Assembly (NCBI RefSeq): GCF_018780075.1
Contig: NZ_JADMKB010000037.1
Location: 1 to 64,000, forward strand
Length of the DNA: 64,000 nt
Reading direction: 5' to 3'
From: Hydrogenophaga sp.
Lineage (GTDB): Bacteria; Pseudomonadota; Gammaproteobacteria; Burkholderiales; Burkholderiaceae_C
Part shown: positions 7,229 through 64,000 of the stretch, one piece after another
Position numbering within the stretch: position 1 is the stretch's first letter
Layout of the letters: every line of letters starts with the position of its first letter
Program-made: the position numbers and the translations under genes
The notes under the pieces: generated by a model
Told to the model about the DNA's origin: nothing
Database searches by the model: none
Seen by the model: the letters and a program-made list of their open reading frames with translations, nothing else

Positions 7229-9007
7229 ATGCCCCTCACCCTGGACCAACTCAACGCCGCGCCACTGGCCGAAGCCGTGATGCTGCTCGACGGCCTGTAC
7301 GAGCATTCGCCCTGGATCGCCGAGGCCGCGCTGCAGCAGCGGCCGTTCGCGTCGCTGGCCGCGCTGAAACACGCCATGGTGCGCGTGCTGGACGGCGCCG
7401 GCGTGGAGCCGCAGCTCGCCCTGATCCGCGCCCACCCCGAGCTCGCGGGCAAGGCCATGGTGAGCCAGTCGCTCACCGCCGAGTCCACGAACGAGCAGAC
7501 CAAGGCCGGCTTGACCCATTGCACGCCCGAGGAGTTCGCGCTCATCCAGCGGCTCAACGCCGACTACAACGCGAAGTTCGGCTTCCCGTTCATCCTCGCG
7601 GTGCGTGGACCCCGCGGCACGGGACTCGCCAAGGCACAGATCATCGCCACCTTCGAGCGCCGCCTGCACCACCCGGTGGACTTCGAGCGCGCCGAGTGCC
7701 TGCGCAACATCCACCGCATCGCCGAGATCCGGCTCAACGACAAGTTCGGCTTCGAGCCCACGCTGGGCAACGCGGTGTGGGACTGGCACGAAGACCTGGC
7801 CCGCCACACCGACCCGGGTTACGCCGAGCTCGGCCAGCTCACCGTGACCTACCTGACCGACGCGCACCGCGCCTGTGCGGCGCAGCTGCAGCGGCAGATG
7901 CTGGCGCTGGGGTTTGACGAGGCGCACATCGACGCGGTGGGCAACGTGGTGGGCCGCTACCACGGCAACACGCCCGATGCGCCCGCCTTGCTCACCGGCA
8001 GCCACTACGACACCGTGCGCAACGGCGGCCAGTACGACGGGCGCCTCGGCATCTTCGTGCCCATGGCCTGCGTGCAGCAGCTGAAGCAGGCCGGCCGGCG
8101 CCTGCCCTTTGCCATCGAGGTGGTGGGCTTTGCCGAAGAAGAAGGCCAGCGCTACAAAGCCACCTTCCTGGGCTCGGGCGCGCTCACCGGCCACTTCAAC
8201 CCGGCCTGGCTGGACCAGCAGGACGCCGACGGCATCACCATGCGCGCGGCCATGCAGCACGCCGGCCTGCCCGCGACGCTGGACGCCATTGCCGCGCTGC
8301 AGCGCGACCCCTCGAAATACCTCGGCTTTGTCGAAGTGCACATCGAGCAGGGGCCGGTGCTCAACGAGCTCGACCTGCCGCTGGGCGTCGTCACCTCCAT
8401 CAACGCCAGCGTGCGTTACCTGGGCGAAGTGATCGGCATGGCCAGCCACGCCGGCACCACGCCCATGGACCGCCGCCGCGACGCGGCCTGCGCCGTGGCC
8501 GAGCTGGCGCTTTTCGCGGAACAGCGCGCCGCGGCCGACGGCGACTCGGTCGCCACCATCGGCATGCTGCAGGTGCCCAACGGCTCCATCAACGTGGTGC
8601 CCGGCGCCTGCCGGTTTTCGATCGACCTGCGTGCGCCGAACGATGCGCAGCGCGACGCACTGGCGCGCGACATCCTCGCGCGGCTGCAGGCCATCTGCGA
8701 ACGCCGCGGCGTGCGCCACCTGCTGGAAGAAACCATGCGCGCCGCCGCCGCGCCCAGCGCCCCCGCCTGGCAGGCGCGCTGGGAAGCCGCCGTGGCCTCG
8801 CTCGGCGTGCCGCTGCACCGCCTGCCCAGCGGCGCCGGCCACGACGCCATGAAGCTGCACGAGGTGATGCCGCAGGCCATGCTGTTCGTGCGGGGTCTCA
8901 ACAGCGGCATCAGCCACAACCCGCTCGAATCCACCACCAGCGACGACATGGACCTCTGCGTGCGCGCGTTCGCGCACCTGATCGACCAGCTCGCCGCCGG
9001 CCACTGA
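7229..9007 (+). CDS. Fused OHCU decarboxylase (UraD) - allantoate amidohydrolase (AllC)
   Basis: 592-residue bifunctional protein. Residues about 1-170 are UraD, which decarboxylates OHCU to S-allantoin: HPELAGK, the EQTKAGL helix and LNADYNAKFGFPFI are present. Residues about 185-592 are an M20/AllC hydrolase that splits allantoate: TGSHYDTVRNGGQYDG and GFAEEEGQRY carry metal ligands, and FVEVHIEQGPVL and SHAGTTPMDRRRDA are typical. The two activities are not consecutive; PuuE acts between them. It is in an operon with puuE, and the next gene starts after 57 bp. No internal stop or frameshift is seen, so the fusion looks genuine. Confidence 0.94.
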   Translation: MPLTLDQLNAAPLAEAVMLLDGLYEHSPWIAEAALQQRPFASLAALKHAMVRVLDGAGVEPQLALIRAHPELAGKAMVSQSLTAESTNEQTKAGLTHCTPEEFALIQRLNADYNAKFGFPFILAVRGPRGTGLAKAQIIATFERRLHHPVDFERAECLRNIHRIAEIRLNDKFGFEPTLGNAVWDWHEDLARHTDPGYAELGQLTVTYLTDAHRACAAQLQRQMLALGFDEAHIDAVGNVVGRYHGNTPDAPALLTGSHYDTVRNGGQYDGRLGIFVPMACVQQLKQAGRRLPFAIEVVGFAEEEGQRYKATFLGSGALTGHFNPAWLDQQDADGITMRAAMQHAGLPATLDAIAALQRDPSKYLGFVEVHIEQGPVLNELDLPLGVVTSINASVRYLGEVIGMASHAGTTPMDRRRDAACAVAELALFAEQRAAADGDSVATIGMLQVPNGSINVVPGACRFSIDLRAPNDAQRDALARDILARLQAICERRGVRHLLEETMRAAAAPSAPAWQARWEAAVASLGVPLHRLPSGAGHDAMKLHEVMPQAMLFVRGLNSGISHNPLESTTSDDMDLCVRAFAHLIDQLAAGH

Positions 9008-12710: not shown

Positions 12711-12732
12711 GCGTTTTTCGCCGGTGCACAAG

Positions 12733-12757
12733 AGGACGCTGCGGCGTCCTTTTTTTT
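12733..12757 (+). terminator. Rho-independent terminator after maeB
   Basis: Stem GGACGC-TGCG-GCGTCC followed by a run of eight T. It begins about 20 bp past the maeB stop and closes the puuE-maeB transcription unit. Confidence 0.9.
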
Positions 12758-12815
12758 GCCCTCCATCGGTCGAGCCGGGGTTTTCCCTATCGACCCATCA
12801 CCTGATCGTACACAT

Positions 12816-12831
12816 AATTTGTATACAGTTT
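12816..12831. promoter_or_regulatory. Purine-regulon operator, site 3 (upstream of NCS2 permease)
   Basis: AATTTGTATACAGTTT shares the TGTATACA core (12820-12827) with sites 1, 2 and 4; the right arm matches the perfect operator at all but one base. It lies 58 bp upstream of the permease ATG. Confidence 0.65.
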
Positions 12832-12888
12832 TACATACCATCCAGGCTGTGCGCCGTCGCAAACAGCCCACCCAATGAGGAGACCTCC

Positions 12889-14376
12889 ATGACCACAACG
12901 GTTCATCCAGTGGATGAAGTCCTGCCCGCCGGCAAGCTCACGGCCCTGGGCCTGCAGCACGTGCTGGTGATGTACGCCGGCGCGGTGGCGGTGCCGCTGA
13001 TCGTGGGCCGCGCGCTCAAGCTCAGCCCCGAGCAGGTGGCAATGCTGATCTCGGCCGACCTGTTCTGCTGCGGCCTGATCACACTGATCCAGTCGCTCGG
13101 TGCCACGCAGTGGTTCGGCATCAAGCTGCCGGTGATGATGGGCGTGACCTTCGCCTCCGTCGCGCCCATGGTCGCCATGGCCAACAGCAACCCCGGCACC
13201 GAAGGCGCGGGCCTGATCTTTGGCGCCATCATCGGCGCGGGCGTGATCTCGATCGTGATCGCGCCGCTGGTCAGCCGCATGCTGCGTTTCTTCCCGCCGG
13301 TGGTCACCGGTTCGATCATCCTGGTGATCGGCATCAGCCTCATGCGTGTGGGCATCAACTGGATCTTCGGCAACCCGGTCGGCCCGACCGCGCCGAGCAT
13401 CGTCAGCCCCGAACACGCCCAGTGGCTGGCCCAGGTGAGCGCCTCGGCCGGCGCCCCGGGCTCGGTGCTTCCGGCCATCCCGAAGGACCTGGCCCTGGTG
13501 CCCAAGCTGCCCAACCCCAAGTACGCCGACCTCACCGGTGTGGGCATCGCGGCGCTGGTGCTGGTGTCGATCATGCTGATCGCGCGCTACGCCAGGGGCT
13601 TCCTGGCCAACATCTCGGTGCTGCTGGGCATCGTCATCGGTGGCATCGCCGCTGCGGCCATGGGCCTGATGAACTTTGACAAGGTGGCCCAGGCGAACTG
13701 GATCGACATCGTGCTGCCCTTCGAGATCGCCACCCCGGTGTTCAACCCCATCCTGATCCTCACCATGACGCTGGTGATGATCGTGGTGATGATCGAGTCG
13801 ACCGGCATGTTCCTCGCGCTGGGCGAAATGACCGACCGCCAGGTGGACGGCGCCGCCCTCACGCGCGGCCTGCGCACCGATGGCCTGGGCACCCTCATCG
13901 GCGGCATCTTCAACACCTTTCCCTACACCAGCTTCTCGCAGAACGTGGGTCTGGTCGCGGTCACCGGCGTCAAAAGCCGCTTCGTCTGCGTGGCGGGCGG
14001 TGTGATCCTGATCGTGCTGGGCCTGCTGCCCAAGATGGCGGCCTTGGTCGAGTCGCTGCCCACGGTGGTGCTGGGCGGCGCGGGGCTGGTGATGTTTGGC
14101 ATGGTCGCCGCCACCGGCATCCGCATCCTGGCGGGCGTGGACTTCAAGAGCAACCGCTTCAACGCCATGATCGTGGCCATCGCCATCGGCGTGGGCATGA
14201 TTCCGCTGATCGCCCCCAACTTCAAGCAGTGGATGCCGCACGGCATCCACCCGCTGATCGAATCGGGCATCCTGCTTGCTTCCATCGCGGCGGTGTTGCT
14301 GAACCTCTTCTTCAACGGTGGCCAAGCGGACGAGGCGGCGGCGATCCGGGCCGCACAACAGGCCGAGGCACACTGA
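12889..14376 (+). CDS. NCS2-family nucleobase (uracil-xanthine type) permease
   Basis: Proton-driven purine/urate importer of the NAT/NCS2 family. 495 residues from ATG 12889, chosen because AGGAG lies at the right spacing and the conserved LQHVLVMYAGAVAVPLIV follows. About 12-14 membrane segments. The NAT signature appears as QNVGLVAVTG and the TM1 QH motif is present. The TGTATACA operator upstream and the island context favour xanthine, urate or uracil as substrate; sequence alone does not separate these. Confidence 0.92.
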   Translation: MTTTVHPVDEVLPAGKLTALGLQHVLVMYAGAVAVPLIVGRALKLSPEQVAMLISADLFCCGLITLIQSLGATQWFGIKLPVMMGVTFASVAPMVAMANSNPGTEGAGLIFGAIIGAGVISIVIAPLVSRMLRFFPPVVTGSIILVIGISLMRVGINWIFGNPVGPTAPSIVSPEHAQWLAQVSASAGAPGSVLPAIPKDLALVPKLPNPKYADLTGVGIAALVLVSIMLIARYARGFLANISVLLGIVIGGIAAAAMGLMNFDKVAQANWIDIVLPFEIATPVFNPILILTMTLVMIVVMIESTGMFLALGEMTDRQVDGAALTRGLRTDGLGTLIGGIFNTFPYTSFSQNVGLVAVTGVKSRFVCVAGGVILIVLGLLPKMAALVESLPTVVLGGAGLVMFGMVAATGIRILAGVDFKSNRFNAMIVAIAIGVGMIPLIAPNFKQWMPHGIHPLIESGILLASIAAVLLNLFFNGGQADEAAAIRAAQQAEAH

Positions 14377-20489: not shown

Positions 20490-20505
20490 TGGCACAGCTT
20501 GTGCA
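20490..20505 (+). promoter_or_regulatory. Possible sigma-54 promoter
   Basis: TGGCACAGCTTGTGCA has GG and GC separated by exactly ten bases and TGGCAC at the -24 element; the -12 element is GTGCA instead of TTGCA. It would fire toward the binding-protein gene with a leader of about 120 bases. Weak single-sequence evidence. Confidence 0.3.
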
Positions 20506-20560: not shown

Positions 20561-20576
20561 CCGGAAATTGCTCTTG
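20561..20576 (+). repeat. Mirrored element 2, transporter-side copy
   Basis: CCGGAAATTGCTCTTG, an exact inverted match to 20319-20334. It is followed by a two-part hairpin at 20582-20608 (CCCTGG/CCAGGG with inner GCG/CGC). Confidence 0.8.
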
Positions 20577-26693: not shown

Positions 26694-26697
<4 letters not shown>

Positions 26698-27833
26698 GCC
26701 TTGGCTCCTTTGCCCATGCGCAGTTTCTTGACCAGCCCCACCACACCCTGCGGCATCCACAAGGTGACGGCGATGAACAGCGCGCCCAGGAAGTACAGCC
26801 AGTACTCGGGAAAGCTCACGGTGAGCCAGCTCTTGGCGCCGTTGACGATGAAGGCGCCGATGATGGGGCCGACCAGCGTGGCGCGGCCACCCACCGCGGC
26901 CCAGACCGCGATCTCGATGCTGGCGGCGGTGCTCATCTCGCCGGGGTTGATGATGCCGACCTGGGGCACGTACAGCGCGCCGGCGATGCCGCACATCACG
27001 GCCGAGATCGTCCAGATGGTGAGCTTGTAGGGCAGCGGGTTGTAGCCGCAGAACATGACGCGGCTTTCGGCGTCGCGCACCGCCTGCAGCACGCGGCCGA
27101 ACTTGCTGTTGACCAGCCAGCGCGCCCAGAGGAAGAAGCCCAGCAGCACCAGGCCGGTGATGACGAACAGCGTCATGCGCATCTGCTGCGTGGCCAGCGG
27201 CATGCCCAGGATGCGCTTGAAATCGGTGAAGCCGTTGTTGCCGCCCATGCCGGTCTCGTTGCGGAAGAACAGCAGCAGCGCGGCGAAGGTGAGCGCCTGC
27301 GTGATGATGGAGAAATACACGCCCTTGATGCGCGAGCGGAAGGCGAAGTAGCCGAACACGAAGGCCACCACGCCCGGCACCAGCACGATCAGCGCCAGCG
27401 TGGCGATGAAGCTGTCCGACAGCGCCCAGTGCCAGGGCAGTTCCTTCCAGTCCAGGAACACCATGAAGTCGGGCAGCTCGCTCTTGTAGTTGCCGTCGGT
27501 GCCGATCTGGCGCATGAGGTACATGCCCATCACGTAGCCGCCGAGCGCGAAGAACAGGCCGTGGCCCAGGCTCAGGATGCCGGTGTAGCCCCAGATCAGG
27601 TCCATGGCCAGCGCGCAGATGGCGTAGCACATGATCTTGCCCAGCAGGCCGACCATGTAGTCGGAGAGATGGAACACGCTGCCTTCGGGCACCAGCAGGT
27701 TGAGCGCCGGCGCCACGGCGCAGACCATCAGAAGCGCGACCAGCGCACCGCTCCAGCCGGTGCGGGTGAGCAAGGGGCCGGCTTGCGGCAGGGTGACAGA
27801 AGGGGAAATGGCTTGTGTCGTCATGGTGTTCAT
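26694..27833 (-). CDS. urtC: Urea ABC transporter permease UrtC
   Basis: 379 residues, LivM-type permease with about ten membrane segments; DLIWGYTGILSLGHGLFFALGGY contains the family's LSLGHG motif. It contains the soluble loop around NYKSELPDFMVFLDW usual for UrtC. It overlaps urtB and urtD by four bases on either side, indicating tight translational coupling. Confidence 0.96.
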
Positions 27834-29422
27834 GCCTCTGCGCTGCGGCCCTTCATCGCGAAGATGCCCTGTGGGCGCTTCTGGATGAAGACGATGATGA
27901 AGACCAGCACCGCGATCTTGGCCAGCACTGCGCCGGCCCAGCCTTCGAGCAGCTTGTTGAGGATGCCCAGGCCCAGCGCGGCGTAGACCGTGCCGGCGAG
28001 CTGGCCCACGCCGCCGAGCACCACCACCATGAACGAGTCCACGATGTAGTTCTGGCCGAGGTCGGGGCCCACGTTGCCGATCTGGCTCAGTGCACAGCCC
28101 GCCAGGCCGGCGATGCCGGAGCCGAGCGCGAAGGCGTAGGTGTCGATGCGCGCGGTGTTCACGCCCATGCAGCTGGCAATCGGCCGGTTCTGCGTCACGC
28201 CGCGCACGAAGAGGCCGAGGCGCGTGCGGGTGATCAGCAGCGTGACGCCGATCAGCACGGTGGCCGCGAACGCGACGATGATGATGCGGTTCCAGGGCAG
28301 CGTGAGGTTGCCCAGCAGCGTGACGCTGCCGCTCATCCAGCTCGGGTTTTCCACGCCCACGTTCTGTGCGCCGAACAGCGTGCGCACGCCCTGCATCAGC
28401 ACCAGCGAAATGCCCCAGGTGGCGAGCAGCGTCTCCAGCGGCCGGCCGTAGAGAAAGCGGATCACGGTGCGCTCCATGGCCGCGCCCACCAGCGCCGAGG
28501 CCATGAAGGCCACGGGCAGGGCCGCGAGCAAATACCAGTCGAAGAGGCCGGGCAGCGCTTCCTTGAAGAAGGCCTGCACCAGCCAGGTGGCGTAGGCGCC
28601 GATCATGATCAGCTCGCCGTGGGCCATGTTGATCACACCCATCAGGCCGTAGGTGATGGCGAGGCCGAGCGCGGCAAGCAGCAGGATGGAGCCGAGGCTG
28701 ATGCCGGTGAAGGCCTGCGAGAGCGCGCTGCTCACGGCCAGGCTGCGGTCGAGCGAGGCCAAGGCGGCGCTGAGCGCGGCCTTCACGGCGGCGCTGGATT
28801 CGGCCTCCAGCTGTTTGGCGAGCAGGGGGCGCAGCGCAGGCTGGCCCATCTCGGCGAAGGTCTGTGCGGCGGCGAGGCGCTGCGCCTCGTCTTCGCTGGC
28901 GAGCTGCATGGCGGCGCGCGTCAGCTCCAGGCTGTCTCGGGCGGCGGGGTCGAGCTCACCCGCCAGGGCTTTTTCCACCAGCGGCAACTGGCTGGCGTCG
29001 GGTTCGTCAAAGGCGCTGCGTTGCAGCAGGGCGGCCGCTTCGCGCTGCGGGCCGGGATCGGGGCGGAACAGGTCGCGCACGGCGAGGGCCGTTTCCAGCG
29101 CGCCGCGGATGCGGTTGTTGACGATGGCGTCTTCGGCATCGTCTGCCGGGTTGACGGCCGCGCCGGTCACGGCGTCGGTGCCACTGCCGTCGTCGGCCAG
29201 GATGAGCACCTGCTCACCCTGCACCTTCACGGCACCGTTGGCCAGCGCCTGCATCAGCGCCACGGCCTTCTCATCGGGGGCCGCCGCGAGGCGGTTGAGG
29301 GTGGCGATGCGGGCATCGCTCTCACCCGCCGCCAGCGCGAGCGCGTCGGCGGGGGTCAGGGCTTGCACACTGGCTGCGCCACACAGGCACAGCAACACCA
29401 GGCAGGAACGCAGCCAGCGCAT
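27830..29422 (-). CDS. urtB: Urea ABC transporter permease UrtB with long N-terminal domain
   Basis: 530 residues. A signal-like N-terminus (MRWLRSCLVLLCLCGAASVQA) leads into a helical, probably periplasmic domain of about 200 residues. From about residue 230 there is a LivH-type permease (GSILLLAALGLAITYGLMGVINMAHGELIMIGAY). The extended form is known for UrtB. The N-terminal domain resembles HEAT-like helical repeats; its role in transport is not established. Four-base overlap with urtC. Confidence 0.95.
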   Translation of the reverse strand: MRWLRSCLVLLCLCGAASVQALTPADALALAAGESDARIATLNRLAAAPDEKAVALMQALANGAVKVQGEQVLILADDGSGTDAVTGAAVNPADDAEDAIVNNRIRGALETALAVRDLFRPDPGPQREAAALLQRSAFDEPDASQLPLVEKALAGELDPAARDSLELTRAAMQLASEDEAQRLAAAQTFAEMGQPALRPLLAKQLEAESSAAVKAALSAALASLDRSLAVSSALSQAFTGISLGSILLLAALGLAITYGLMGVINMAHGELIMIGAYATWLVQAFFKEALPGLFDWYLLAALPVAFMASALVGAAMERTVIRFLYGRPLETLLATWGISLVLMQGVRTLFGAQNVGVENPSWMSGSVTLLGNLTLPWNRIIIVAFAATVLIGVTLLITRTRLGLFVRGVTQNRPIASCMGVNTARIDTYAFALGSGIAGLAGCALSQIGNVGPDLGQNYIVDSFMVVVLGGVGQLAGTVYAALGLGILNKLLEGWAGAVLAKIAVLVFIIVFIQKRPQGIFAMKGRSAEA

Positions 29423-29432
29423 CGTCAGACCC

Positions 29433-30698
29433 TCACTTCTTCACGGGCATGTTGGCCTTGCCTTTGTTCTCGGCGATGTAGTCGCTCCAGGGATCGGCCA
29501 CCACCGGCCCCGGCGTCTTCCACACCACGTTGAACTGGCCGTCGGCCTTCACTTCGCCGATGAACACTGGCTTGTGCAGGTGGTGGTTTTCCTTGTCCAT
29601 CGTGGACGTGAAACCACCCGGGGCCTTGAAGGTCTGGCCGGCCATGGCGGCGATGACCTTGTCGGTGTCGGTGGACTTGGCCTTGGCGACCGCTTGCGCC
29701 CACATGTTGATGCCGATGTAGGTGGCTTCCATCGGGTCGTTGGTCAGCGGCTTGTCCTTGTGGCCGGCGATGCCCTTGGCCTTGGCGTAGGCGGCCCACT
29801 TCTTGGTGAACTCGGCGTTGGTCGGGCTCTTCACGCTCATGAAGTAGTTCCAGGCGGCCAGGTGGCCCACCAGCGGCTTGGTGTCCACGCCGCGCAGCTC
29901 TTCCTCACCCACCGAGAAGGCGACCACAGGCACGTCCTTGGCCGAGAGGCCGGCGTTGCCCAGTTCCTTGTAGAACGGCACGTTGGAGTCGCCGTTGATG
30001 GTGGAGACCACGGCCGTCTTCTTGCCGGCGGCCGCGAACTTCTTGATGTTGGCGATGATGGTCTGGTAGTCCGAGTGACCGAAGGGGGTGTACTCCTCCA
30101 TGATGTCCTCGTCCTTCACGCCCTTGGCCTTCAGGAAGGCGCGCAGGATCTTGTTGGTCGTGCGCGGGTAGACGTAGTCGGTGCCCAGCAGCACCCAGCG
30201 CTTGGCCGAGCCGCCGTCCTTGCTCATCAGGTATTCCACCGCGGGAATGGCCTGCTGGTTGGGCGCGGCGCCGGTGTAGAACACGTTCTTGGACAGCTCT
30301 TCGCCTTCGTACTGCACCGGGTAGAACAGCAGGTTGTTCTTCTCTTCGAACACCGGCAGCACCGACTTGCGCGAGACCGAGGTCCAGCAGCCGAACACGG
30401 CGGCGACCTTGTCCTGGTCGATCAGCTGCTTGGCCTTTTCGGCGAACAGCGGCCAGTTGGACGCCGGGTCCACCACCACGGGCTCGAGCTTCTTGCCGAG
30501 CACGCCGCCCTTGGCGTTGATCTCGTCGATGGCCATCAGGGCCACGTCCTTCAGCACGGTTTCCGAAATGGCCATCGTGCCCGACAGGCTGTGCAGCACA
30601 CCGACCTTGATCGTGTCGGCCGCGTGGGCCGAGAGGCCGAAGGCGCCCAGGGCGGTGGCGACCGTCAGGGCTTTGAGGGTGAATCGACGTTGCATCAT
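29433..30698 (-). CDS. urtA: Urea ABC transporter substrate-binding protein UrtA
   Basis: 421 residues with Sec leader ending AFGLSAHA. Type I periplasmic binding protein: TIKVGVLHSLSGTMAISE, FGCWTSVSRKSVLPVFE, LFYPVQYEGEE and WNYFMSV are hallmark UrtA sequences. Captures urea for UrtBCDE. First gene of a five-gene operon. Urea uptake complements the urea released internally from allantoate and feeds the urease encoded at 60.5-64 kb. Two adjacent ATG codons (30698, 30695) are possible starts. Confidence 0.97.
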   Translation of the reverse strand: MMQRRFTLKALTVATALGAFGLSAHAADTIKVGVLHSLSGTMAISETVLKDVALMAIDEINAKGGVLGKKLEPVVVDPASNWPLFAEKAKQLIDQDKVAAVFGCWTSVSRKSVLPVFEEKNNLLFYPVQYEGEELSKNVFYTGAAPNQQAIPAVEYLMSKDGGSAKRWVLLGTDYVYPRTTNKILRAFLKAKGVKDEDIMEEYTPFGHSDYQTIIANIKKFAAAGKKTAVVSTINGDSNVPFYKELGNAGLSAKDVPVVAFSVGEEELRGVDTKPLVGHLAAWNYFMSVKSPTNAEFTKKWAAYAKAKGIAGHKDKPLTNDPMEATYIGINMWAQAVAKAKSTDTDKVIAAMAGQTFKAPGGFTSTMDKENHHLHKPVFIGEVKADGQFNVVWKTPGPVVADPWSDYIAENKGKANMPVKK

Positions 30699-30821: not shown

Positions 30822-30839
30822 GTACGCCGGGTGGCGTAC
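30822..30839. promoter_or_regulatory. Inverted repeat GTACGCC-GGGT-GGCGTAC upstream of urtA
   Basis: Perfect 7+7 inverted repeat with a 4-bp centre, 124 bp before urtA; a further partial GGCGTA lies just upstream at 30815. Candidate operator for a nitrogen regulator, not matched to a known consensus. Nothing else is recognised in the 243-bp gap apart from the terminator at 30884. Confidence 0.4.
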
Positions 30840-54740: not shown

Positions 54741-55766
54741 CTAACCACCCCTCGGCTGCAACAACGGCACCCGGTTGATCGCCATCGCCGCCGCCGCCGT
54801 GCGCGTCTCCACCCCCAGCTTGGCGTGGATGCGCTCGAGGTGCTTCTTCACTGTCGCGGGGCTGGAGCCGAGGATGTCGCCGATGTCGCGGTTGATCTTG
54901 CCCTTGACCACCCAGTACAAGACCTCGGCCTCGCGCGCGGTCAGGCCGAAGGACTGCGCCAGGGCTTCGAGCACGGCGGCGTCCGAGGTTTCCTGCATCA
55001 CGATCAGCCAGTCGCCGCCTTCGCCCGGCGCTTCCACCGTCTCGGCGCCGTCCTGGTCGCCCACGCGCTGGTGCAGGCGGAAGGTGAGGCGGCGCGGGCC
55101 CTGTTCCAGCGTGAGCCTGGGCGGTTCACGCTGGGCCTGGGCGTCGCTCAGGTGGCGGCGCAGCCATTGCAGAACTTCGGCTGGCGTGTCGGGCGCCACC
55201 GTGCCGCAGTAGCGCTGCAGCAGGTCGCGCGCCAGCGGGGTCTGCCACATCAGGCGGCCGTCGCGCTCGCGCACGGTGATGGTGGCGTAGCCGAAGGCGT
55301 CGAGCGCGTAACGCGCCTGCCGGCGCTCCACCGCGCCCTGGCGCGCGTGGCGCGCCGAGCGCAGGTGCACACCCATGCGCGCGATCACCTCGCGCGGCTT
55401 GATGGGCTTGGTCACGTAGTCCGCGCCGCCCGCGTCGAGCGCGGCCACCAGGTGCTCGGTCTCGGTCAGGCCGGTCATGAAGATGATGGGGATCTGCGCG
55501 GTGGCCGGGTCGGCCTTGAGGCGGCGCGCGACCTCGAAGCCGTCGATGCCGGGCATGACCGCGTCGAGCAGGATCACATCGGGCAGGGCCTGCGTGGCGC
55601 GGCGGATGGCGGCCTCGCCGTCGAGCGCGACCAGCACGGTGTAGCCGGCTTCGTCGAGCGCGTCGTGCAGCGGGGCGACGTTGTCGGGCACGTCGTCCAC
55701 GATCAGCACCACCAGCGCGTCGCTCAGGTGCTCGCGGGGGGGCTCGGGCAGGGAAAGGCGGTTCAT
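54741..55766 (-). CDS. LuxR-type response regulator paired with the transporter-kinase
   Basis: 341 residues. Receiver (about 18-140) with acidic pair in LIVDDVPDN, phospho-acceptor Asp in VILLDAVMPG, Thr in MTGL and Lys in TKPIKP. A middle part of about 120 residues may be PAS-like. C-terminal LuxR helix-turn-helix (about 270-335) with LTAREAEVLYWVVKGKINRDIGDIL and ATVKKHLERIHAKLGV. It lies 35 bp downstream of the giant sensor gene in the same orientation, so it is the probable cognate regulator. Confidence 0.9.
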   Translation of the reverse strand: MNRLSLPEPPREHLSDALVVLIVDDVPDNVAPLHDALDEAGYTVLVALDGEAAIRRATQALPDVILLDAVMPGIDGFEVARRLKADPATAQIPIIFMTGLTETEHLVAALDAGGADYVTKPIKPREVIARMGVHLRSARHARQGAVERRQARYALDAFGYATITVRERDGRLMWQTPLARDLLQRYCGTVAPDTPAEVLQWLRRHLSDAQAQREPPRLTLEQGPRRLTFRLHQRVGDQDGAETVEAPGEGGDWLIVMQETSDAAVLEALAQSFGLTAREAEVLYWVVKGKINRDIGDILGSSPATVKKHLERIHAKLGVETRTAAAAMAINRVPLLQPRGG

Positions 55767-55801: not shown

Positions 55802-58800
55802 TCATGGCGAACCGGGCACCGAAGGCGCGGCGCCGTGCGCCAGCAAGCGCTGCTCGATGGCTTCGAACCGGAACTCGCGCGCGAGCGTGCGCAGGCCCTG
55901 AGCAAAGTCGGCCTGCTCGGGGCGCTGGCGCACCCAGTCGTCGAGCCAGTTCACGATGCCCTTGTAGTAACCCAGGCGCACCAGCTCCAGCAGCGGCGCG
56001 AGTTCGGCCTCGCTGCTGGCGGCGGGGGCCTGGGGGGTGTGGGCGGGGGCCGGCGTGGCGGTGTCGCCCCGGGTCCATTGCAGGCCCAGGCGCTGGCCCA
56101 GCCAGGCCAGCAGGTCGTCGCGACGCACGGGTTTGACGAAGAAGTCCTGCGGGCGGTGGCCTTGATCGCCTTCGCCTTCGATCTGCAGGCCCTTGTCAAA
56201 CGCATTGGCCGAGACGATGGCCAGCGGCACGCCGCCCCAGCCGCGCGCGCGCAGGCGGCGCAGGGTTTCCCAGCCGTCGATGCCGGGCATGGCGAGGTCC
56301 ATGAAGACGGCGTGGGGCGCACCCTCGCCCGCCGGGTCCAGTGCGTCGAGCATGGCCAGCGCGTCGTGGCCGCTGGTGGCCAGCAGCACCTCGAAGCCCA
56401 GCGGCTGCAGCCAGCGCGCGATCAGCTCGCGGTCGCTCTCTTCGTTGTCCACCACCAGCACGCGGTGGCGCGGCCCCTCGTAGGCCGTGATCGCGGGTGC
56501 CGCCACGTCGCGCCGCACCACGGCGCCGTGCAGCTCGGGCAGGAACAGGCGCACGCTGAACACCGTGCCCTCGCCCGGCGTGCTGCGCACCGTCATCTCG
56601 CCGCCCATGAGGTCGGTCAGCATCTTGGCGATGGTCAGGCCCAGGCCGGTGCCACCCGAGGCCACGGCGGCCTCGGCCTGGCCGCGCGCGAACGGCTCGA
56701 ACACGCGGTCCAGCTCGGGCGCGCCCATGCCCGGGCCGGTGTCGTGCACCTCGAACAGCGCCATCTCGCGCGCGTGCGTCACGCGCAGCCGCACCCCGCC
56801 TTCGCGCGTGAACTTCACCGCGTTGCCCAGCAGGTTGATGAGGATCTGGCGCAGCCGCTTGTCGTCGGCGCGCACGGCGTCGGGCAGGCGGTTGCCGGTC
56901 TCGAACGCGAAGTGCAGGCCCTTGGCCGCGGCCTGCAGCTCGAACATGCTGGCCACCTCGCGCATGGCGTCGGCGAAGGCCATGGGCTTCACGTCGAGCG
57001 CGAGCTTGCCGGACTCGATGCGCGCGATGTCCAGCGTGCCCTCGATCAGCGAGAGCAGGTGTTCGCCGCCGCGGTTGATCACGCGGATGGCCTGCGCGCG
57101 GTGGGGCGCCATGCCGGTGTCTTCCTGCAAGAGCTGCGCGTAGCCCAGGATGCTGTTGAGCGGTGTGCGCAGCTCGTGGCTGATGGTGCTGATGTAGCGC
57201 GTCTTGGCGTGGTTGGCCTGCTCGGCGGCCAGGCGCGCCTGCTGCAGGGCCTCGTCGGTGAGGCGGTGCGATTCGATCTCCTGCATGAGCAGGCGCGTCT
57301 GCCGGTTCGACTCTTCCTGCGCCACCTCGCGGCTCTTGTGCGCCAGCACCAGCCACCAGGCCACGGTGGCGGCGATCAGCAGCAGCACGGCGTAGACCCG
57401 CAGGAAGCCCGAGCGCAGCGCGGCGTCGAGCAGGCTGGCGTCGGCCACCGCTTCGAGACGCTGCCCCAGGCCCTGCACCTGCTGCCGGTACAGCAGCCCC
57501 AGCACGGCCGCGAGCACCGGCGCCACCACCAGCATGAGCAGCAGGTAGTGCGCGAGGCCCGCTTCGAGGTAAGGCCACATGCGCTGCGGCATCACGGTGC
57601 GCAAAGCGCCCTGCCACTGCTCTGACAGGCGCGCGTGCGGCTTGCACAGGTCGCCACAGCGCGCGTCCAGCGTGCAACACAGCGAGCAGATGTGGCCCTG
57701 GTAAGCCGGGCAGTGCGCCATGTCGGGCGCTTCGTATTCACGCTCACAAATCACGCAGCGGAGGAGTGCACCCCCCGCGCCGCCTGCGGCGTCACCCCCC
57801 TGAAGGGGGGCAACACCAGCGGCCGGGCGAAGCCCGTTCCGCGGTGTTTCTGGGAGGGCTACCCCGCTTCCCGCACAACCATCGCAAGAACCTTTGTCGC
57901 AGGATTGCGAGGTGCGAGCAATGTAATACCGCCCCTGCGTCGCCCACGCGATCAGCGGCGATGCCACCAGCGCCGTCACCATCGCGATCACCGCCGAAAA
58001 CGCCTGCGCCGTGTCGCCCATCAACCCCATGTGCGCCGCGATCGAGAGCGCCGAAGCCAGGCCCATGGCGCCCACGCCCACGGGGTTGATGTCGTAGAGG
58101 TGGGCGCGCTTGAACTCGATGCCCGGCGGGCTCCAGCCCAGGGGTTTGTTGATCACGAGGTCGGCCACCACGGCCATGATCCAGGCGATGGCGAGGTTGC
58201 TGTAGAGCCCCAGCACCTCGCCCAGCGCGCGGAACACGTTCATCTCCATCAGCATGAAGGCGATCAGCGTGTTGAACACCACCCAGACCACGCGGCCCGG
58301 GTGGCTGTGCGTGAGGCGCGAGAAGAAGTTGCTCCAGGCCAGCGAACCGGCGTAGGCGTTGGTGACGTTGATCTTGAGCTGCGACACCACCACGAACAGC
58401 GCCGTGGCCACCACCGCCCAGCCGTAGTTCGGGAACACGTACTCGTAGGCCGCGAGGTACATCTGGTTCGGGTCCACCGCGCGGTCGGGCGGCACCATGT
58501 GGCTGATGGCGAGGTAGGCGAGCAGCGCGCCACCCAGCATCTTGAGCACGCCGAGGATCACCCAACCCGGCCCGCCGGCCAGCACGCCGGCCCACCAGCG
58601 CCAGGCCCGGCCTTTTTCGGGCGCCGGCATGAAGCGCAGGTAGTCGGCCTGCTCGCCCATCTGCGTGATGAGCGCGATGCCGACCGTGAGAGCAGCACCA
58701 AACAGGTGCCAATCGAACGCCACACCCGCACCAGATTCGCCCCCGTAATGCACCACGTTGGAGAACGCACCGGGATCGAGCGTCCACACCGCCACGAACG

Positions 58801-59338
58801 GCACCAGCATCATCACCAGCCAGAGCGGCTGGGTCCAGACCTGGAAGCGGCTGATGACCGACACGCCGTAGGTCACGAGCGGGATCACCACCAGCGCGCA
58901 GATCAGGTAGCCCCAGGCCGGCGGGATGTCCAGCGCCAGCTCCAGCGCGTAGGCCATGACCGCCGCTTCGAGCGCGAAGAAGATGAAGGTGAACGAGGCG
59001 TAAATCAGCGAGGTGATGGTGGAGCCGATGTAGCCGAAGCCCGCGCCACGCGTGAGCAGGTCCATGTCCACGCCGTAGCGCGCGGCGTAGATGCTGATGG
59101 GCAGGCCCGCCAGGAAGATGATCAGCCCCGTGACCAGGATGGCGAGCGCGGCGTTGACGAAGCCGTACTGCACCAGCAGCGTGGCGCCCACGGCCTCCAG
59201 GATCAGGAACGAGGCCGCGCCGAACGCCGTGTTCGCCACGCGCCACTCGGACCACTTGCGAAAGCGCTGCGGCGTGTAACGCAGCGCGTAGTCTTCCATG
59301 GTCTCGCTGCCGACCCAGCTGTTGTAGTCGCGGCGCAC
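55802..59338 (-). CDS. NCS1 transporter - Cys-rich module - hybrid histidine kinase fusion
   Basis: About 1178 residues. Residues 1-490 are an NCS1 nucleobase:cation symporter with about twelve membrane segments (YGVDMDLLTRGAGFGYIGSTITSLIYAS and NVTNAYAGSLAWSNF in parts). Residues 527-566 are a Cys-rich module (CVICE, HICSLCC, CGDLCKPH). One or two more membrane segments follow, then HisKA with SHELRTPLN near 718, HATPase (NLLGNAVKFT, DTGPGMG, GGTGLGL), and a receiver near 958-1075 with Asp in VFMDLAMPG. The frame is open throughout. The start is uncertain: GTG 59338 keeps the family RRDYN segment; GTG 59422 and ATG 59299 are alternatives. Likely senses the transported nucleobase or its flux. 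Confidence 0.85.
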   Translation of the reverse strand: MRRDYNSWVGSETMEDYALRYTPQRFRKWSEWRVANTAFGAASFLILEAVGATLLVQYGFVNAALAILVTGLIIFLAGLPISIYAARYGVDMDLLTRGAGFGYIGSTITSLIYASFTFIFFALEAAVMAYALELALDIPPAWGYLICALVVIPLVTYGVSVISRFQVWTQPLWLVMMLVPFVAVWTLDPGAFSNVVHYGGESGAGVAFDWHLFGAALTVGIALITQMGEQADYLRFMPAPEKGRAWRWWAGVLAGGPGWVILGVLKMLGGALLAYLAISHMVPPDRAVDPNQMYLAAYEYVFPNYGWAVVATALFVVVSQLKINVTNAYAGSLAWSNFFSRLTHSHPGRVVWVVFNTLIAFMLMEMNVFRALGEVLGLYSNLAIAWIMAVVADLVINKPLGWSPPGIEFKRAHLYDINPVGVGAMGLASALSIAAHMGLMGDTAQAFSAVIAMVTALVASPLIAWATQGRYYIARTSQSCDKGSCDGCAGSGVALPETPRNGLRPAAGVAPLQGGDAAGGAGGALLRCVICEREYEAPDMAHCPAYQGHICSLCCTLDARCGDLCKPHARLSEQWQGALRTVMPQRMWPYLEAGLAHYLLLMLVVAPVLAAVLGLLYRQQVQGLGQRLEAVADASLLDAALRSGFLRVYAVLLLIAATVAWWLVLAHKSREVAQEESNRQTRLLMQEIESHRLTDEALQQARLAAEQANHAKTRYISTISHELRTPLNSILGYAQLLQEDTGMAPHRAQAIRVINRGGEHLLSLIEGTLDIARIESGKLALDVKPMAFADAMREVASMFELQAAAKGLHFAFETGNRLPDAVRADDKRLRQILINLLGNAVKFTREGGVRLRVTHAREMALFEVHDTGPGMGAPELDRVFEPFARGQAEAAVASGGTGLGLTIAKMLTDLMGGEMTVRSTPGEGTVFSVRLFLPELHGAVVRRDVAAPAITAYEGPRHRVLVVDNEESDRELIARWLQPLGFEVLLATSGHDALAMLDALDPAGEGAPHAVFMDLAMPGIDGWETLRRLRARGWGGVPLAIVSANAFDKGLQIEGEGDQGHRPQDFFVKPVRRDDLLAWLGQRLGLQWTRGDTATPAPAHTPQAPAASSEAELAPLLELVRLGYYKGIVNWLDDWVRQRPEQADFAQGLRTLAREFRFEAIEQRLLAHGAAPSVPGSP
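57767..57852 (+). repeat. GC-rich palindromic repeat, copy 13, inside the sensor-kinase reading frame
   Basis: Full-length copy (GCCGCCTGCGGC, CCCCCCTGAAGGGGGG, CGGGC-GAA-GCCCG) lying antisense within the transporter-kinase gene and translated in frame as a Gly/Ala-rich linker at about residues 495-524. It is the only copy not placed after a stop codon in the sense direction. Confidence 0.85.
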
Positions 59339-59388
59339 CTTGATGATGCGTTGGGGAGCCGGGTCATGGCCCCCATGCTCCGCCGCTG

Positions 59389-59447
59389 CGCGGGTCGCTG
59401 CCCCCCAAGGGGGCTGATCCACCTTGGGGCGGCCCGGCGGTGGATCG
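59389..59447 (+). repeat. Degenerate fragment of the GC-rich repeat
   Basis: CGCCGCTGCGCG, CCCCCCAAGGGGG and a GGCCCGGCGG remnant. It overlaps the 5' end of the sensor-kinase frame, which obscures where that gene begins. The gap from here to 59560 shows no clear operator. Confidence 0.5.
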
Positions 59448-59560
59448 ATTGCGGTGTGGGGTTCAAGGTTCACCCTAGGCTTTGCGCAGCATTCGTGCCA
59501 AGGCTGATTTTCCAGTGGGGTTCTGCGAAACTGCGAGACCACACACCAGACACCCTCAGC

Positions 59561-60409
59561 ATGCGACAACTCTCCCCCCAGGGTCAGCAGACCCTCAACG
59601 ACATCGCCCAGCGCCACGGCTTCAGCTTCGACGCCACGCTCTCCATGCTCGAATCCGTGATCAACGGCAACGGCAGCATGGCGCAGTTCAACCACCCCGA
59701 ATTCAGCGGCTCGGGCCAGTGGATGCGCGGCGGCATGACCATGGTCTCGGACATGTTCAACAACCACCTGAAGGGCCGGGTCGACAACCTCTGCAGCGAG
59801 CTGTCCAACCTGATCGCCAACCAGCCCGACCTGCTGCGCAGCGGCAGCTTTCAAAGCCAAAGCCAGGGCGGCAGCGGCCACCACCAGATCCAGGCCAACC
59901 ACTCGGGTGGTGGCATGCAAAGCCAGGGCGACAGCGGCTTCGGCGCCAACAGCCTGTTCGTGCCGCCCGCGCCCGGCACCAGTGGCGACTGGTGGCCGGC
60001 CGACCTGCGCTGGCCCAACAGCACGGGCGCGCAGAACAACGTGCGCTACGCGTACTTTGCGCAGGCGCGGCGCCTGGCGATCGAGGTCCACGGATCGGTC
60101 ACGGTCTATGACACGCTGGACCACCAGATCGGCGGCTTTTCGCAGCAGCAATCCGCGGGCGGTACGCTGGGTTTTTCCAGCCAGTACGGTCTGATCGACG
60201 TGGCCAGCCTGCCGGTGGTTTCGCGCGATGGCATGGCGGTGCAGCCACCTGCGCCGCAGCCCAGCGGCATGGCGTACCACCCGGTACCCGAAGCCGGTGC
60301 CACCGACACCTTCGCCGCCATCGAACGCCTGGCGGGCCTGCACGCCAAAGGCATGCTCACCGACGCCGAATACAGCACCAAGAAGGCCGAGCTGCTGGCC
60401 CGACTCTGA
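59561..60409 (+). CDS. SHOCT-domain-containing cytosolic protein
   Basis: 282 residues from ATG 59561. No signal peptide. N-terminal helical part (QGQQTLNDIAQRHGFSFDAT), a Gln/Ser/Gly-rich low-complexity stretch (about 100-140), a beta-rich middle (VRYAYFAQARRLAIEVHG, VTVYDTLDHQIGGF) and a C-terminal SHOCT motif (IERLAGLHAKGMLTDAEYSTKKAELLARL in pieces). SHOCT is an oligomerisation helix pair. Function unknown. It is divergent from the sensor kinase and 122 bp upstream of ureA. Confidence 0.85.
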   Translation: MRQLSPQGQQTLNDIAQRHGFSFDATLSMLESVINGNGSMAQFNHPEFSGSGQWMRGGMTMVSDMFNNHLKGRVDNLCSELSNLIANQPDLLRSGSFQSQSQGGSGHHQIQANHSGGGMQSQGDSGFGANSLFVPPAPGTSGDWWPADLRWPNSTGAQNNVRYAYFAQARRLAIEVHGSVTVYDTLDHQIGGFSQQQSAGGTLGFSSQYGLIDVASLPVVSRDGMAVQPPAPQPSGMAYHPVPEAGATDTFAAIERLAGLHAKGMLTDAEYSTKKAELLARL

Positions 60410-60531: not shown

Positions 60532-60834
60532 ATGGAACTGACTCCGCGTGAGAAAGACAAGCTGCTGATCTTCACCGCCGCCCTGCTGGCCGAGCGGCGC
60601 ATGGCGCGTGGCCTGAAGCTCAACTACCCCGAAGCGGTGGCCCTGATTTCGGCCGCCGTGATGGAGGGCGCCCGAGACGGCAAGACCGTGGCGCAGCTCA
60701 TGAGCGAAGGCCGCAATGTGCTCACCCGCGCCGATGTGATGGAGGGCATTGCCGAGATGATCCCGGACATCCAGGTGGAGGCCACGTTCCCGGACGGGAC
60801 CAAGCTGGTGACGGTGCACGATCCCATTGTTTAA
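60532..60834 (+). CDS. ureA: Urease gamma subunit
   Basis: 100 residues, the family length. Small structural subunit of the nickel urease that hydrolyses urea to ammonia and carbamate in the cytosol. Seen: [75 protein letters not shown] in pieces. First of the ureA-small protein-ureB set; a repeat copy begins at its stop codon. Confidence 0.97.
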
Positions 60835-60911
60835 CCCCCGCGCCGCGCTGCGCGCGTCACCCCCCAGGGGGCGATGCGAGTGGCCCGGCGGAGCCGGTTC
60901 CACCGCATCCC
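60834..60911 (+). repeat. GC-rich 3'-end palindromic repeat, copy 14
   Basis: Starts at the final base of the ureA stop codon. GCGCTGCGCGC, CCCCCCAGGGGG and CCGGC-GGA-GCCGG within GATGCGAGTGG...CACCGCATC. Confidence 0.85.
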
Positions 60912-60960
60912 CGGACTCAGACACTTCGCGCCGACCGCCTTCTTTTTTTGGAGCCCTGAC

Positions 60961-61122
60961 ATGAAATCGCTGCTCACCCTGTCCGCTGCCTTTGCGTCTC
61001 TGCCCGCCTTCGCCCATGATGGACACGGCCTGTTCGGCAGCCACTGGCACCCCACCGACGCGCTGGGTTTTGTGGCGGTCGCCGGCCTGATCGCGCTGGC
61101 GGTCTGGCTGTCGAAGAAGTGA
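60961..61122 (+). CDS. Small His-rich membrane protein of the urease operon
   Basis: 53 residues. Signal-like N-terminus ending SLPAFA, then a His-rich stretch ([13 protein letters not shown], four His within 13 residues) and one membrane segment ([16 protein letters not shown]) ending SKK. It lies between ureA and ureB, ten bases before ureB. The exported His cluster could bind nickel at the membrane; this is inference. It resembles the small N-terminal region of HupE/UreJ-type proteins but is far too short to be a full UreJ permease. Confidence 0.75.
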
Positions 61123-61132
61123 GGGAGTCGCC

Positions 61133-61441
61133 ATGATCCCCGGTGAATATTTTGTGGACGCAGGGGAACACCCCCTCAACCCCGGCCGCCGCACGCTGAC
61201 GCTGGTGGTGCAGAACACGGCCAACCGGCCGGTGCAGGTGGGCTCGCACTACCACTTTGCCGAAACCAACGCCGCGCTCGGCTTCGACCGCGATGCCGCG
61301 AAAGGCATGCGCCTGAACATCGCGGCGGGCACCGCCGTGCGCTTCGAACCCGGACAACAACGCACCGTGGAGCTGGTGGACTTCGCCGGCGACCGCATCG
61401 TGGTCGGCTTTCGCGGCCTGGTGCAGGGCCCGCTGACCTGA
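61133..61441 (+). CDS. ureB: Urease beta subunit
   Basis: 102 residues. [62 protein letters not shown] and [10 protein letters not shown] are typical UreB motifs (each in pieces). Structural subunit assembled with UreA and UreC. Unusually, ureC does not follow directly: a gene of about 1.1 kb on the opposite strand intervenes. Confidence 0.97.
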
Positions 61442-61469
61442 GCGCCAGCCAGCCCTTGCTGCCGGTGCC

Positions 61470-62606
61470 TCAGTGCGAGAAGGTGGTGCGGGTCACCACC
61501 GGCTGGCCCGGCGCGGCCAGCACGAAGAAACCCGGCAGACCGGCGGTGCCGAAATTCGTGGCCGGGTTGCGCGCGAACACCGAGTCGCTGAGGTTCATGC
61601 GCCCGCTGCGGTCGTTGCTGACGAAGAACACGGCGCTGCCGCCCTCGACCGCCGTGTTGTCGCTGACCGTGCTGCCATAGACCGACAGGGTGAAGAAGTT
61701 GCCGTCGTTGTAAATGGCCCCACCACTGCCACCACCGGGTGTGCCCGCCTGCGCCGGATTGGCGCCATTGCCGAGCGCGGCGTTGTGCGACAGCACGCTG
61801 TTGTAGACGCTGTAGGACACACCGATGCCGCTGAGCGCACCGCCGTTGGAACAGCGGTTGCCCTGACCCGCTGCGCCGCCGAAGGTGCTGCCCACCACAT
61901 AGACCGGCCGGTTCTGGTAGATGCTCAGCACCCGCACAGCGCCACCGCCGATGTCCGGTCCGGTGGTCTCGCACCGGTTGCGGGTGAACTGGCTGTTGAC
62001 GATCTTGAACTGCCCGCCCCGCACAAAGATGGCACCGCCACCGCCCCCATCGGTGAGCTGGCCGATGGAGTTGCCCTGGGTGAAGCCGATGTTCTGCACC
62101 GTCAACCGGGGCGTTTCCTGGTTATTGCACTGCGAACTTGTCCAGACCTGCTCGGGATCGCAGGTGTTCTGATAGAGAATCCGCACCCGGCCGCCGCCGC
62201 TGAGCGTCACCAGCCCGCCTCCATCCAGTGTCACGTCCGGTCGGTTGTTGAACACCTTGGCTGTTTGCGGCAGGGTGATGGTGACCGGGTCTGGCCCGCA
62301 GCTGAACCGGATCTTGCCCCCCTGGGCCACCGCCTGCACCACCGCCTCCCCTGTGCAGCTGGCCACGGTGCCTGTGCCAACGACCTGGTCGGACTGGCTG
62401 GTGTCCACCGCCCGGCCCGCCGCCGGTACCGTCACCCGGCCGCCCGGTGCGCCGGCATTGATCGGAGTGCCGGTGGTCGCATCACTGCCGCCTCCATTTC
62501 CGCCATCGGCGCTACTGTCCCCGTCACCACCTCCGCCGCATGCGGCCAGAAGAAACGGTAGCGCAACGGCCATGACAACGAGAGGAGAAACAGCAGACAA
62601 CCTCAT
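61470..62606 (-). CDS. Beta-helix lipoprotein inserted between ureB and ureC
   Basis: 378 residues from ATG 62606. Lipoprotein leader MRLSAVSPLVVMAVALPFLLAAC then a Gly/Ser/Asp linker. Residues about 110-378 show right-handed parallel beta-helix features: repeated short strands with GGG turns (DVTLDGGGLVTLSGGG, GGGGGAIFVRGG, SQFTRNR, GGGSGGAIYNDG). It resembles choice-of-anchor/polymorphic outer-membrane-type secreted proteins. Probably surface-anchored, function unknown. Convergent with ureB and divergent from ureC, so it interrupts the usual operon. Base composition is slightly lower in GC than urease genes. Confidence 0.78.
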   Translation of the reverse strand: MRLSAVSPLVVMAVALPFLLAACGGGGDGDSSADGGNGGGSDATTGTPINAGAPGGRVTVPAAGRAVDTSQSDQVVGTGTVASCTGEAVVQAVAQGGKIRFSCGPDPVTITLPQTAKVFNNRPDVTLDGGGLVTLSGGGRVRILYQNTCDPEQVWTSSQCNNQETPRLTVQNIGFTQGNSIGQLTDGGGGGAIFVRGGQFKIVNSQFTRNRCETTGPDIGGGAVRVLSIYQNRPVYVVGSTFGGAAGQGNRCSNGGALSGIGVSYSVYNSVLSHNAALGNGANPAQAGTPGGGSGGAIYNDGNFFTLSVYGSTVSDNTAVEGGSAVFFVSNDRSGRMNLSDSVFARNPATNFGTAGLPGFFVLAAPGQPVVTRTTFSH

Positions 62607-62818
62607 AGACACTCGGAAAGGAAAAAAGGGTTGGACTGGTCCGGTGGGTTGTGAGCCTTGGCACGATTCATGCACCAACCGATTCCGAAGACTATAGGCA
62701 CCAAAGGCCCTCGGAAGCAAGCCGACAAACGAAAGGACTGTGTACGGTCGTTACCGTGGCCGCTCCACTGTCACGCGCCGATCTCATTCCAGCGAACAAC
62801 CCAGCCAGAAAAAATACC

Positions 62819-64000
<1,182 letters not shown>

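Follow-up and report, generated by a model that had tools for sequence, protein, structure and literature searches.

An NCS1-fold domain fused to a hybrid histidine kinase near urea and formamide genes in Hydrogenophaga and related bacteria

CbrA of Pseudomonas (SLC5-STAC-PAS-kinase) combines a transporter of the LeuT fold, a linker module and a histidine kinase in one chain, and its Na2 site holds a lysine, Lys196 (PMC13022988). CrbS/CrbR (MxtR/ErdR) and RpuS/RpuR likewise consist of a symporter-fused kinase, of the SLC5-STAC type, and a separate regulator for nutrient use, the nutrients being acetate or pyruvate, and in Ks-Amt5 a transporter domain of the Amt/Rh fold has been turned into a sensor of a nitrogen nutrient, ammonium, on a histidine kinase (PMC5764959). 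Here we analyzed a stretch of 64,000 nucleotides of Hydrogenophaga sp. (contig NZ_JADMKB010000037.1, "the window"), in which a single minus-strand open frame (55802-59338) encodes a sensor protein of related plan: an NCS1-fold transporter domain is followed by a module of eight cysteines (8-Cys module), a helical hairpin, a histidine kinase (HK) and a receiver. Like CbrA, the sensor joins a transporter of the LeuT fold through a linker module to a kinase and has, by alignment, a lysine in the Na2 site (Lys322), but its transporter is NCS1 and not SLC5/SSS, and the 8-Cys module and the hairpin lie at the position where CbrA has STAC/PAS. The first-pass annotation had proposed such a CbrA-like plan with another transporter family, and our analysis bears this out. 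CrbS and RpuS differ from the sensor in their SLC5 domain, which was not found in it, and in their ligands; Ks-Amt5 differs in fold and ligand and has no such linker module. The articles drawn on for comparison here and below include PMC9379551, PMC13022988, PMC10781810, PMC13209695, PMC11109136, PMC5764959 and PMC2907700.

Control of amide use has been described in other terms. The Methylophilus fmdCABDEF operon is controlled by a putative positive regulator, and AmiC/AmiR amidase operons by the binding protein AmiC together with the RNA-binding AmiR; no such kinase is described for either in the accessible parts of these articles. The AmiC/AmiR amidase paper also describes a Pseudomonas amiE-fmdAB-urtABCDE cluster without amiC/amiR. 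A table in the Dechloromonas aromatica genome paper includes, uncommented in the part available, a histidine kinase of 1131 aa and a receiver protein of 308 aa adjoining UrtA, and this pair is, by size and place, probably the same system. Among the titles and abstract starts searched in an open-access library, no dedicated bacterial urea/amide sensor kinase was found.

The sensor protein and its response regulator

The sensor gene ends with a TGA at 55802-55804. The minus-strand frame around it is open across 1545 codons, and GTG codons at 59473, 59422 and 59338 are candidate starts, so that the gene may extend over 55802-59473; the conserved part of the protein runs from 59335 (RRDYN). Residues are numbered here with GTG 59338 as residue 1. 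All parts are encoded on the minus strand: the NCS1-fold domain by 57899-59338 (residues 1-480), the 8-Cys module by 57644-57757 (residues 528-565), the hairpin by 57344-57577 (approximately residues 588-665), the kinase core by 56540-57208 (HisKA 711-777 with His721, HATPase_c 825-933) and the receiver (REC) by 56105-56461 (residues 960-1078 with Asp1014, which is invariant in a 30-row alignment). HisKA, HATPase_c and a C-terminal REC with the respective His and Asp were identified by Pfam, making the protein a hybrid histidine kinase, in line with the kinase and receiver read in the first-pass annotation; Pfam found no HPt domain in it.

The assignment of the N-terminal part to NCS1 could not be accepted on trust, since Pfam, PF02133 and PDB sequence searches are blind to it. 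The first 480 residues had no Pfam match at E ≤ 10, and PF02133 (NCS1) did not match the sensor at E ≤ 10, including in a search of the whole own genome. A profile search of PDB sequences with the transporter part gave chance matches only, and an NCBIfam search returned nothing useful. However, three other lines of evidence agree on NCS1. Comparison of a 29-row sensor alignment with an NCS1 alignment of 7 rows, E. coli CodB being the first, using hhalign, gave 98.4% over 384 columns at 19% identity. An AlphaFold2 (AF2) model of residues 1-690, built with 58 relatives, had a mean pLDDT of 79.6 and a pTM of 0.80, and the top five PDB matches of this model in Foldseek were all Mhp1/CodB (TMt 0.65-0.75). 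Proteins of the SSS, Nramp and APC folds ranked lower, and DUR3, a urea transporter of plants with the SSS fold, came 40th. The third line is a free-standing bridge protein of 497 aa from genome G390, the nearest free-standing relative of the transporter domain. It matches the profile of the sensor's transporter domain at 1.9e-47 and PF02133 at 3.6e-9, over the cut-off (TIGR00800: 2.5e-16, below the cut-off), and since it matches both profiles the chain from sensor to NCS1 is closed. The bridge protein has an arginine at the position of Lys322, and its gene lies directly upstream of genes for a carbon-nitrogen hydrolase and a UrtA-like binding protein. An SLC5/SSS transporter was rejected: hhalign gave 0.2%, with an SSS control profile of two rows only, and PF00474 did not match the sensor within its own genome. 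As modeled, and with support from profile comparison and bridge protein, the N-terminal domain of the sensor is thus of the LeuT-type NCS1 fold.

Mhp1 and CodB resemble the sensor domain in overall fold, with motifs aligned along the 384 columns, but are free-standing Na+ symporters with their own Na+ ligands and aromatic sandwich. In CodB, Thr278 and Thr279 are Na+ ligands, and Trp108 and Phe204 sandwich the nucleobase, a pair described as conserved in NCS1 (PMC9379551). The hhalign comparison and three MAFFT modes agree in aligning Lys322 of the sensor with CodB Thr278, Ile323 with Thr279, Gly40 with Gly29, Phe120 with Trp108, Ile224 with Phe204, Thr117 with Gln105 and Asn324 with Asn280. 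The hydroxyl ligands of the Na2 site are replaced throughout the family (Lys322 in 85 of 85 rows, Ile323 in 84 of 85); since both side-chain ligands are gone, Na+ coupling, at least, is unlikely. The aromatic sandwich is changed as well: residue 120 is Phe or Leu, and residue 224 is Ile, Val, Met or Leu in 84 of the 85 rows. Lys322, Asn324, Thr117, Gln226 and Glu124 are invariant in all 85 rows, and Glu48 in all 84 rows with a residue there.

The Cys-rich cluster noted in the first pass between transporter and kinase is real. Its pattern is CxxC-11-C-7-CxxCC-5-CxxxC, and none of C528, C531, C543, C551, C554, C555, C561 and C565 is replaced in more than one of 85 rows. Pfam gave no match to the module, and residues 521-661 stayed blank, the presence of a STAC model in the library being unverified. 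A profile of the module had 42 strong matches in 299 genomes (E ≤ 2.8e-19), none of them in a frame shorter than 894 aa, and the next five followed only at 0.004-0.009. Searching the PDB with the module yielded no more than short zinc-finger-like matches (best E 0.003). The module is equally conserved at urease-type and formamidase-type loci. Because it is invariant in both neighborhood types and absent elsewhere among the strong matches, a structural or coupling role would fit as well as the metal or redox switch suggested earlier. In the AF2 model the hairpin region forms helices 585-628 and 634-689; two membrane helices are predicted, their placement in the membrane being suggested by the sequence. 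The variable linker of the sensor contains a GC-rich repeat element that is translated in frame (57755-57880). Counting itself, this element has 43 matches genome-wide, and 10 more were found in the window, where the copies are, by eye, mostly intergenic.

The gene for a response regulator (RR) of 341 aa (54741-55766, minus strand) begins 35 bp downstream of the kinase stop. Pfam detects REC and GerE, which places the RR in the NarL/FixJ (LuxR-type) group; CbrB, the partner of CbrA, is an NtrC-type regulator. A PAS-like middle domain between REC and the LuxR/GerE helix-turn-helix is suggested by the topology of an AF2 model, the fold search having been swamped by matches to the REC domain. The RR had already been named as a partner in the first pass, and an RR match was found within 9 kb of the kinase in all 79 loci fetched for comparison (19 around close orthologues from the window's own family and 60 others). 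In a second set of 80 named loci, the best 80 matches, the RR is present in 77, and the three loci without it end at contig edges.

Spread of the fusion and its gene neighborhood

The kinase is present at E ≤ 1e-150 in 109 of 200 genomes from the family to which the window belongs (HK+); genomes without a match at this threshold, with three candidates scored per genome, are called HK-. Matches at E ≤ 1e-20 were obtained in 52 of 398 genomes of the phylum, and each of the 57 listed from this search sits in a frame of 894 aa or longer. A broader profile (E ≤ 0.001, 299 genomes) gave 42 matches in frames of that length and four others: the bridge protein, a short partial match in G430 and two distant ones. 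In both searches four or five candidates were scored per genome. Transporter and kinase are therefore not separate adjacent genes in the relatives listed, and two proteins with an internal start, the other possibility raised in the first pass, are ruled against by the 57 listed and 42 strong homologues, and by those listed from the own family, in single long frames. Two matches in the own family are interrupted by one stop each. The closest named homologue among the matches listed is from Hydrogenophaga flava (90% identity), and the family is on this basis probably GTDB's Burkholderiaceae. In all 84 other alignment rows, the part most identical to the window protein is the transporter, with a tie in one row. 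Two shorter homologues (894 and 899 aa) have no receiver domain; a formamidase of approximately 70% identity adjoins them, and no urtA was seen in the fetched stretches.

The sensor recurs next to genes for urea and formamide use. Urease, urt (urea ATP-binding cassette (ABC) transporter) or formamidase genes were found within 9 kb of the kinase in 74 of the 79 fetched loci, with overlapping counts of 22 for urease, 60 for urt and 45 for formamidase, and in 65 of the 80 named loci. In the own family, a strong urease or formamidase match was present in 108 of 109 HK+ and 47 of 91 HK- genomes, kinship being ignored in this comparison, and 44 of 45 genomes with a strong formamidase are HK+. Urease was scored at E below 1e-20 to PF00449 (151 genomes), excluding four weaker matches of which at least three are over the Pfam cut-off and with which the HK- figure becomes 50 of 91; formamidase was scored at E below 1e-100 to PF03069 (45 genomes), excluding ten weaker matches (four HK+, six HK-). 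A quick tree of 85 transporter domains, for which long branches were warned of, needs five changes between urease and formamidase labels, so that the type of neighborhood follows no one clean split.

Sensor matches at E ≤ 1e-100 occur in 520 plasmid records, 340 of them from Klebsiella; 40 of the 520 were listed and one Klebsiella record was inspected. At six annotated plasmid loci, the kinase lies beside urt and formamidase (Klebsiella, Paraburkholderia, Burkholderia vietnamiensis, Methylobacterium), beside urt (Thioclava) or beside urease (Mitsuaria). The annotation of the Klebsiella plasmid, which is known to be incomplete, shows no RR.

At the window's locus, the kinase and the urease genes ureA, ureB, ureC, ureE, ureF and ureG are transcribed divergently. 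By tblastn, the urease genes occupy the plus strand (60532-64000), with ureA at approximately 60532-60834, ureB at 61133-61441 and ureC from approximately 62819 past the window end; PF00449 matches at 62825-63190 (contig C140). Kinase and ureA are less than 440 bp apart in most of 52 compared loci, and in the window a SHOCT-domain gene (59561-60409, plus strand) lies between them. A lipoprotein-like frame without Pfam match (61470-62720, minus strand) splits the urease genes, lying in reverse orientation between ureB and ureC, which are close together in most of the relatives of this locus compared. A sigma54-type element at 62659-62673 (plus strand) lies upstream of ureC. Farther away, the window encodes an allantoate amidohydrolase/OHCU decarboxylase fusion (7229-9004, plus strand) and a xanthine permease of the NCS2 family (12724-14373, plus strand).

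A palindrome and sigma54-type elements at the urt and kinase promoters

The window also contains urtA, encoding the binding protein of the urea ABC transporter (29436-30698; Peripla_BP_5), urtB (27833-29422; TIGR03409) and urtC (26697-27833; TIGR03408), all on the minus strand, the two NCBIfam matches being over the cut-off. We propose that urtA with urtB and urtC is a candidate target operon of the RR. The palindrome TACGCCGGGTGGCGTA (30823-30838), located 125 bp upstream of urtA, is a candidate RR operator and the only perfect TACG-N8-CGTA palindrome of the window. In a count of spaced 4+4 dyads, TACG-N8-CGTA was present in 40 of 49 divergent kinase-urtA regions, and no dyad exceeded 9 in three shuffles of these regions. 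Its density is 2.85 per kb there, compared with 0.013 per kb elsewhere in the same loci, and it is often extended to TACGyCA-NN-TGrCGTA. Where urtA is divergent from the kinase, the palindrome precedes it in 41 of 50 cases; for other urease-type urtA genes, not divergent from the kinase, the figure is 29 of 36. For other genes the upstream counts were 1 of 62 (ureC), 6 of 48 (formamidase) and 0 of 124 (RR). Masked dyad counting in ureA upstream regions gave a maximum of 11 of 52, compared with 6-7 in shuffles.

To compare urtA promoters with and without the kinase, UrtA was searched at E ≤ 1e-80, with matches in 70 of 80 genomes. From 33 HK+ genomes sampled out of 109, 31 had a match and 29 were used (G014 and G033, with matches of only 44-45%, were dropped); among 47 urease-carrying HK- genomes, 39 had a match and 38 were used (G037, whose N-terminal part is missing, was dropped). 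Four HK- upstream stretches were shorter than 500 bases (135, 341, 462 and 472), the shortest being maybe too short for a site. The palindrome precedes the urea-type urtA in 28 of 29 HK+ cases (28 genomes and the window) and in 3 of 38 HK- cases (Fisher p 2e-14), and it separates the two groups better than any other of 255,211 dyads. The HK+ exception, G049, shows the sigma54 pattern, a weaker kinase match (3.5e-166) and a UrtA of 67% identity. In all three HK- genomes where the palindrome occurs, an RR gene (45-46% identity) is retained in divergent orientation to ureA, and no kinase was found in their fetched stretches; G140, an HK- genome without the palindrome, has neither RR nor kinase near its urease. 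Because the palindrome-bearing HK- genomes keep the RR and G140 has neither, the palindrome appears, as far as checked, to follow the RR.

The best dyad for HK- genomes was the sigma54 pattern TGGC-N7-TTGC, which points toward urtA in 34 of 38 HK- and 1 of 29 HK+ cases. No urtA promoter has both the palindrome and the sigma54 pattern, and that of G140 has neither. A related element, TGGCA-N7-TGC, which by its consensus we take to be a sigma54 promoter, points toward the kinase in 33 of 52 ureA-divergent loci and toward ureA in 10 of 52. In these regions its density toward the kinase is 3.0 per kb, compared with 0.064 per kb elsewhere (both strands). The window copy, the -24/-12 element TGGCACGAATGCTGC at 59486-59500 on the minus strand, points at the kinase gene. 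Since the pattern is not enriched in the window (allowing one mismatch, 85 matches against 116 expected), the case for the element is made by the comparison across loci. A relaxed scan found none in 12 of the 52 loci; it covered 500 bases from the ureA side and misses distant elements, including that of the window. Another perfect TGGCA-N7-TGC lies at 20490-20504 (plus strand), 72 bp upstream of a frame starting at 20576.

A proposed receptor pathway and its alternatives

We consider it likely that the sensor is a transceptor, a receptor kinase derived from a transporter, with urea and short-chain amides as its ligands, and that its RR controls urt. Nitrogen limitation would turn on the kinase and RR genes via the sigma54-type element. 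Urea, or formamide and acetamide at formamidase-type loci, would bind to the NCS1 domain, and the ligand-induced change would be relayed through the 8-Cys module and the membrane hairpin to the kinase, where His721 would phosphorylate the RR. Our guess is that this transfer is direct, since Pfam finds no HPt in the kinase, and that the sensor REC acts as a modulator, which fits the two homologues without REC. The phosphorylated RR would then bind TACG-N8-CGTA upstream of urtABCDE(-fmdA) and increase both the import and the degradation of the ligand; replacement of the sigma54 pattern by the palindrome suggests an activator and not a repressor. A more detailed version, to which we give about even chances, is that this NCS1 branch is an obligate urea/amide receptor, with a lysine-closed Na+ site, a reshaped pocket and the 8-Cys module as its private coupling to the kinase. 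After acquisition of the system, direct sigma54 control of urtA would have given way to the RR palindrome, and the sigma54 element before the sensor at ureA-type loci would create a two-input cascade (nitrogen AND urea).

Several observations weigh against this proposal. Five of the 79 fetched loci (two of them cut by contig ends) and 15 of the 80 named loci (three short or starting at the kinase) have no urea or formamide genes nearby; of these 20 loci, five are short or end at the kinase. The other named loci without urea genes are mostly from Zoogloea, Denitromonas, Azonexus and similar genera. Urea carboxylase or allophanate hydrolase, expected at urease-free loci, was absent among ten neighbor proteins from four such loci, which comprised a cyclic di-GMP enzyme, a TonB receptor, metal efflux pumps and others, one of them matchless. 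One HK+ genome (G191, 73% complete) has neither urease nor formamidase. The palindrome is missing at 9 of 50 divergent urtA genes, and since it was found upstream of ureA in none of 70 cases, urease itself may not be a target. The presence of the RR was checked in one of 35 palindrome-free HK- genomes. Because the genomes share descent, the p-values for palindrome and kinase overstate the association. Control of the sensor by nitrogen does not extend to all loci, as the sigma54 pattern points toward the kinase in only 1 of 49 urtA-divergent loci, compared with the 33 of 52 ureA-type loci.

The location in a nucleobase/urea region, as described in the first-pass annotation, was upheld for urea, since urease, urt and formamidase recur, and not for the purine, hydantoin or pyrimidine ligand postulated with it. 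A sensor whose NCS1 domain binds such a compound, with the urea genes responding as the downstream part of purine breakdown, would agree with the nucleobase- and hydantoin-type ligands of NCS1 proteins and with the allantoate amidohydrolase and xanthine permease genes 41-48 kb from the kinase. We nevertheless regard it as very improbable: the recurring partners in the loci examined are urea and formamide genes (other nucleobase genes were uncounted), and the Trp/Phe sandwich of NCS1 is changed in the sensor. Formamidase is not known to be part of purine breakdown, which also counts against a nucleobase ligand. An improbable, if somewhat better, candidate signal is nitrogen status, ammonium or a metal such as nickel or zinc at the Cys module, urt being one output among others. 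The eight conserved cysteines and the sigma54-type element before the kinase in ureA-type loci point in this direction, but the module is equally conserved at formamidase-type loci, the transporter part is the best conserved part in 84 rows, which is unexpected for a mere anchor, and the sigma54-type element would, where present, already supply nitrogen status.

Closer to the receptor proposal is a working urea/amide symporter whose kinase reports flux rather than occupancy. The domain has the NCS1 fold, and CbrA is reported both to transport histidine and to signal. Transport by the NCS1 domain would have to proceed with both side-chain Na+ ligands replaced and often next to a separate urt transporter, and we therefore hold this explanation to be rather unlikely. 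A urea/amide receptor remains the reading that we prefer.

Urea and formamide are common nitrogen sources. The sensor system is real, widespread and conserved; its candidate operator has unusually good support and goes with a clean switch of promoter type. The system would extend the known fusions of symporters and kinases beyond SLC5 to another family, and provides a natural test case for the conversion of a transporter fold into a receptor.

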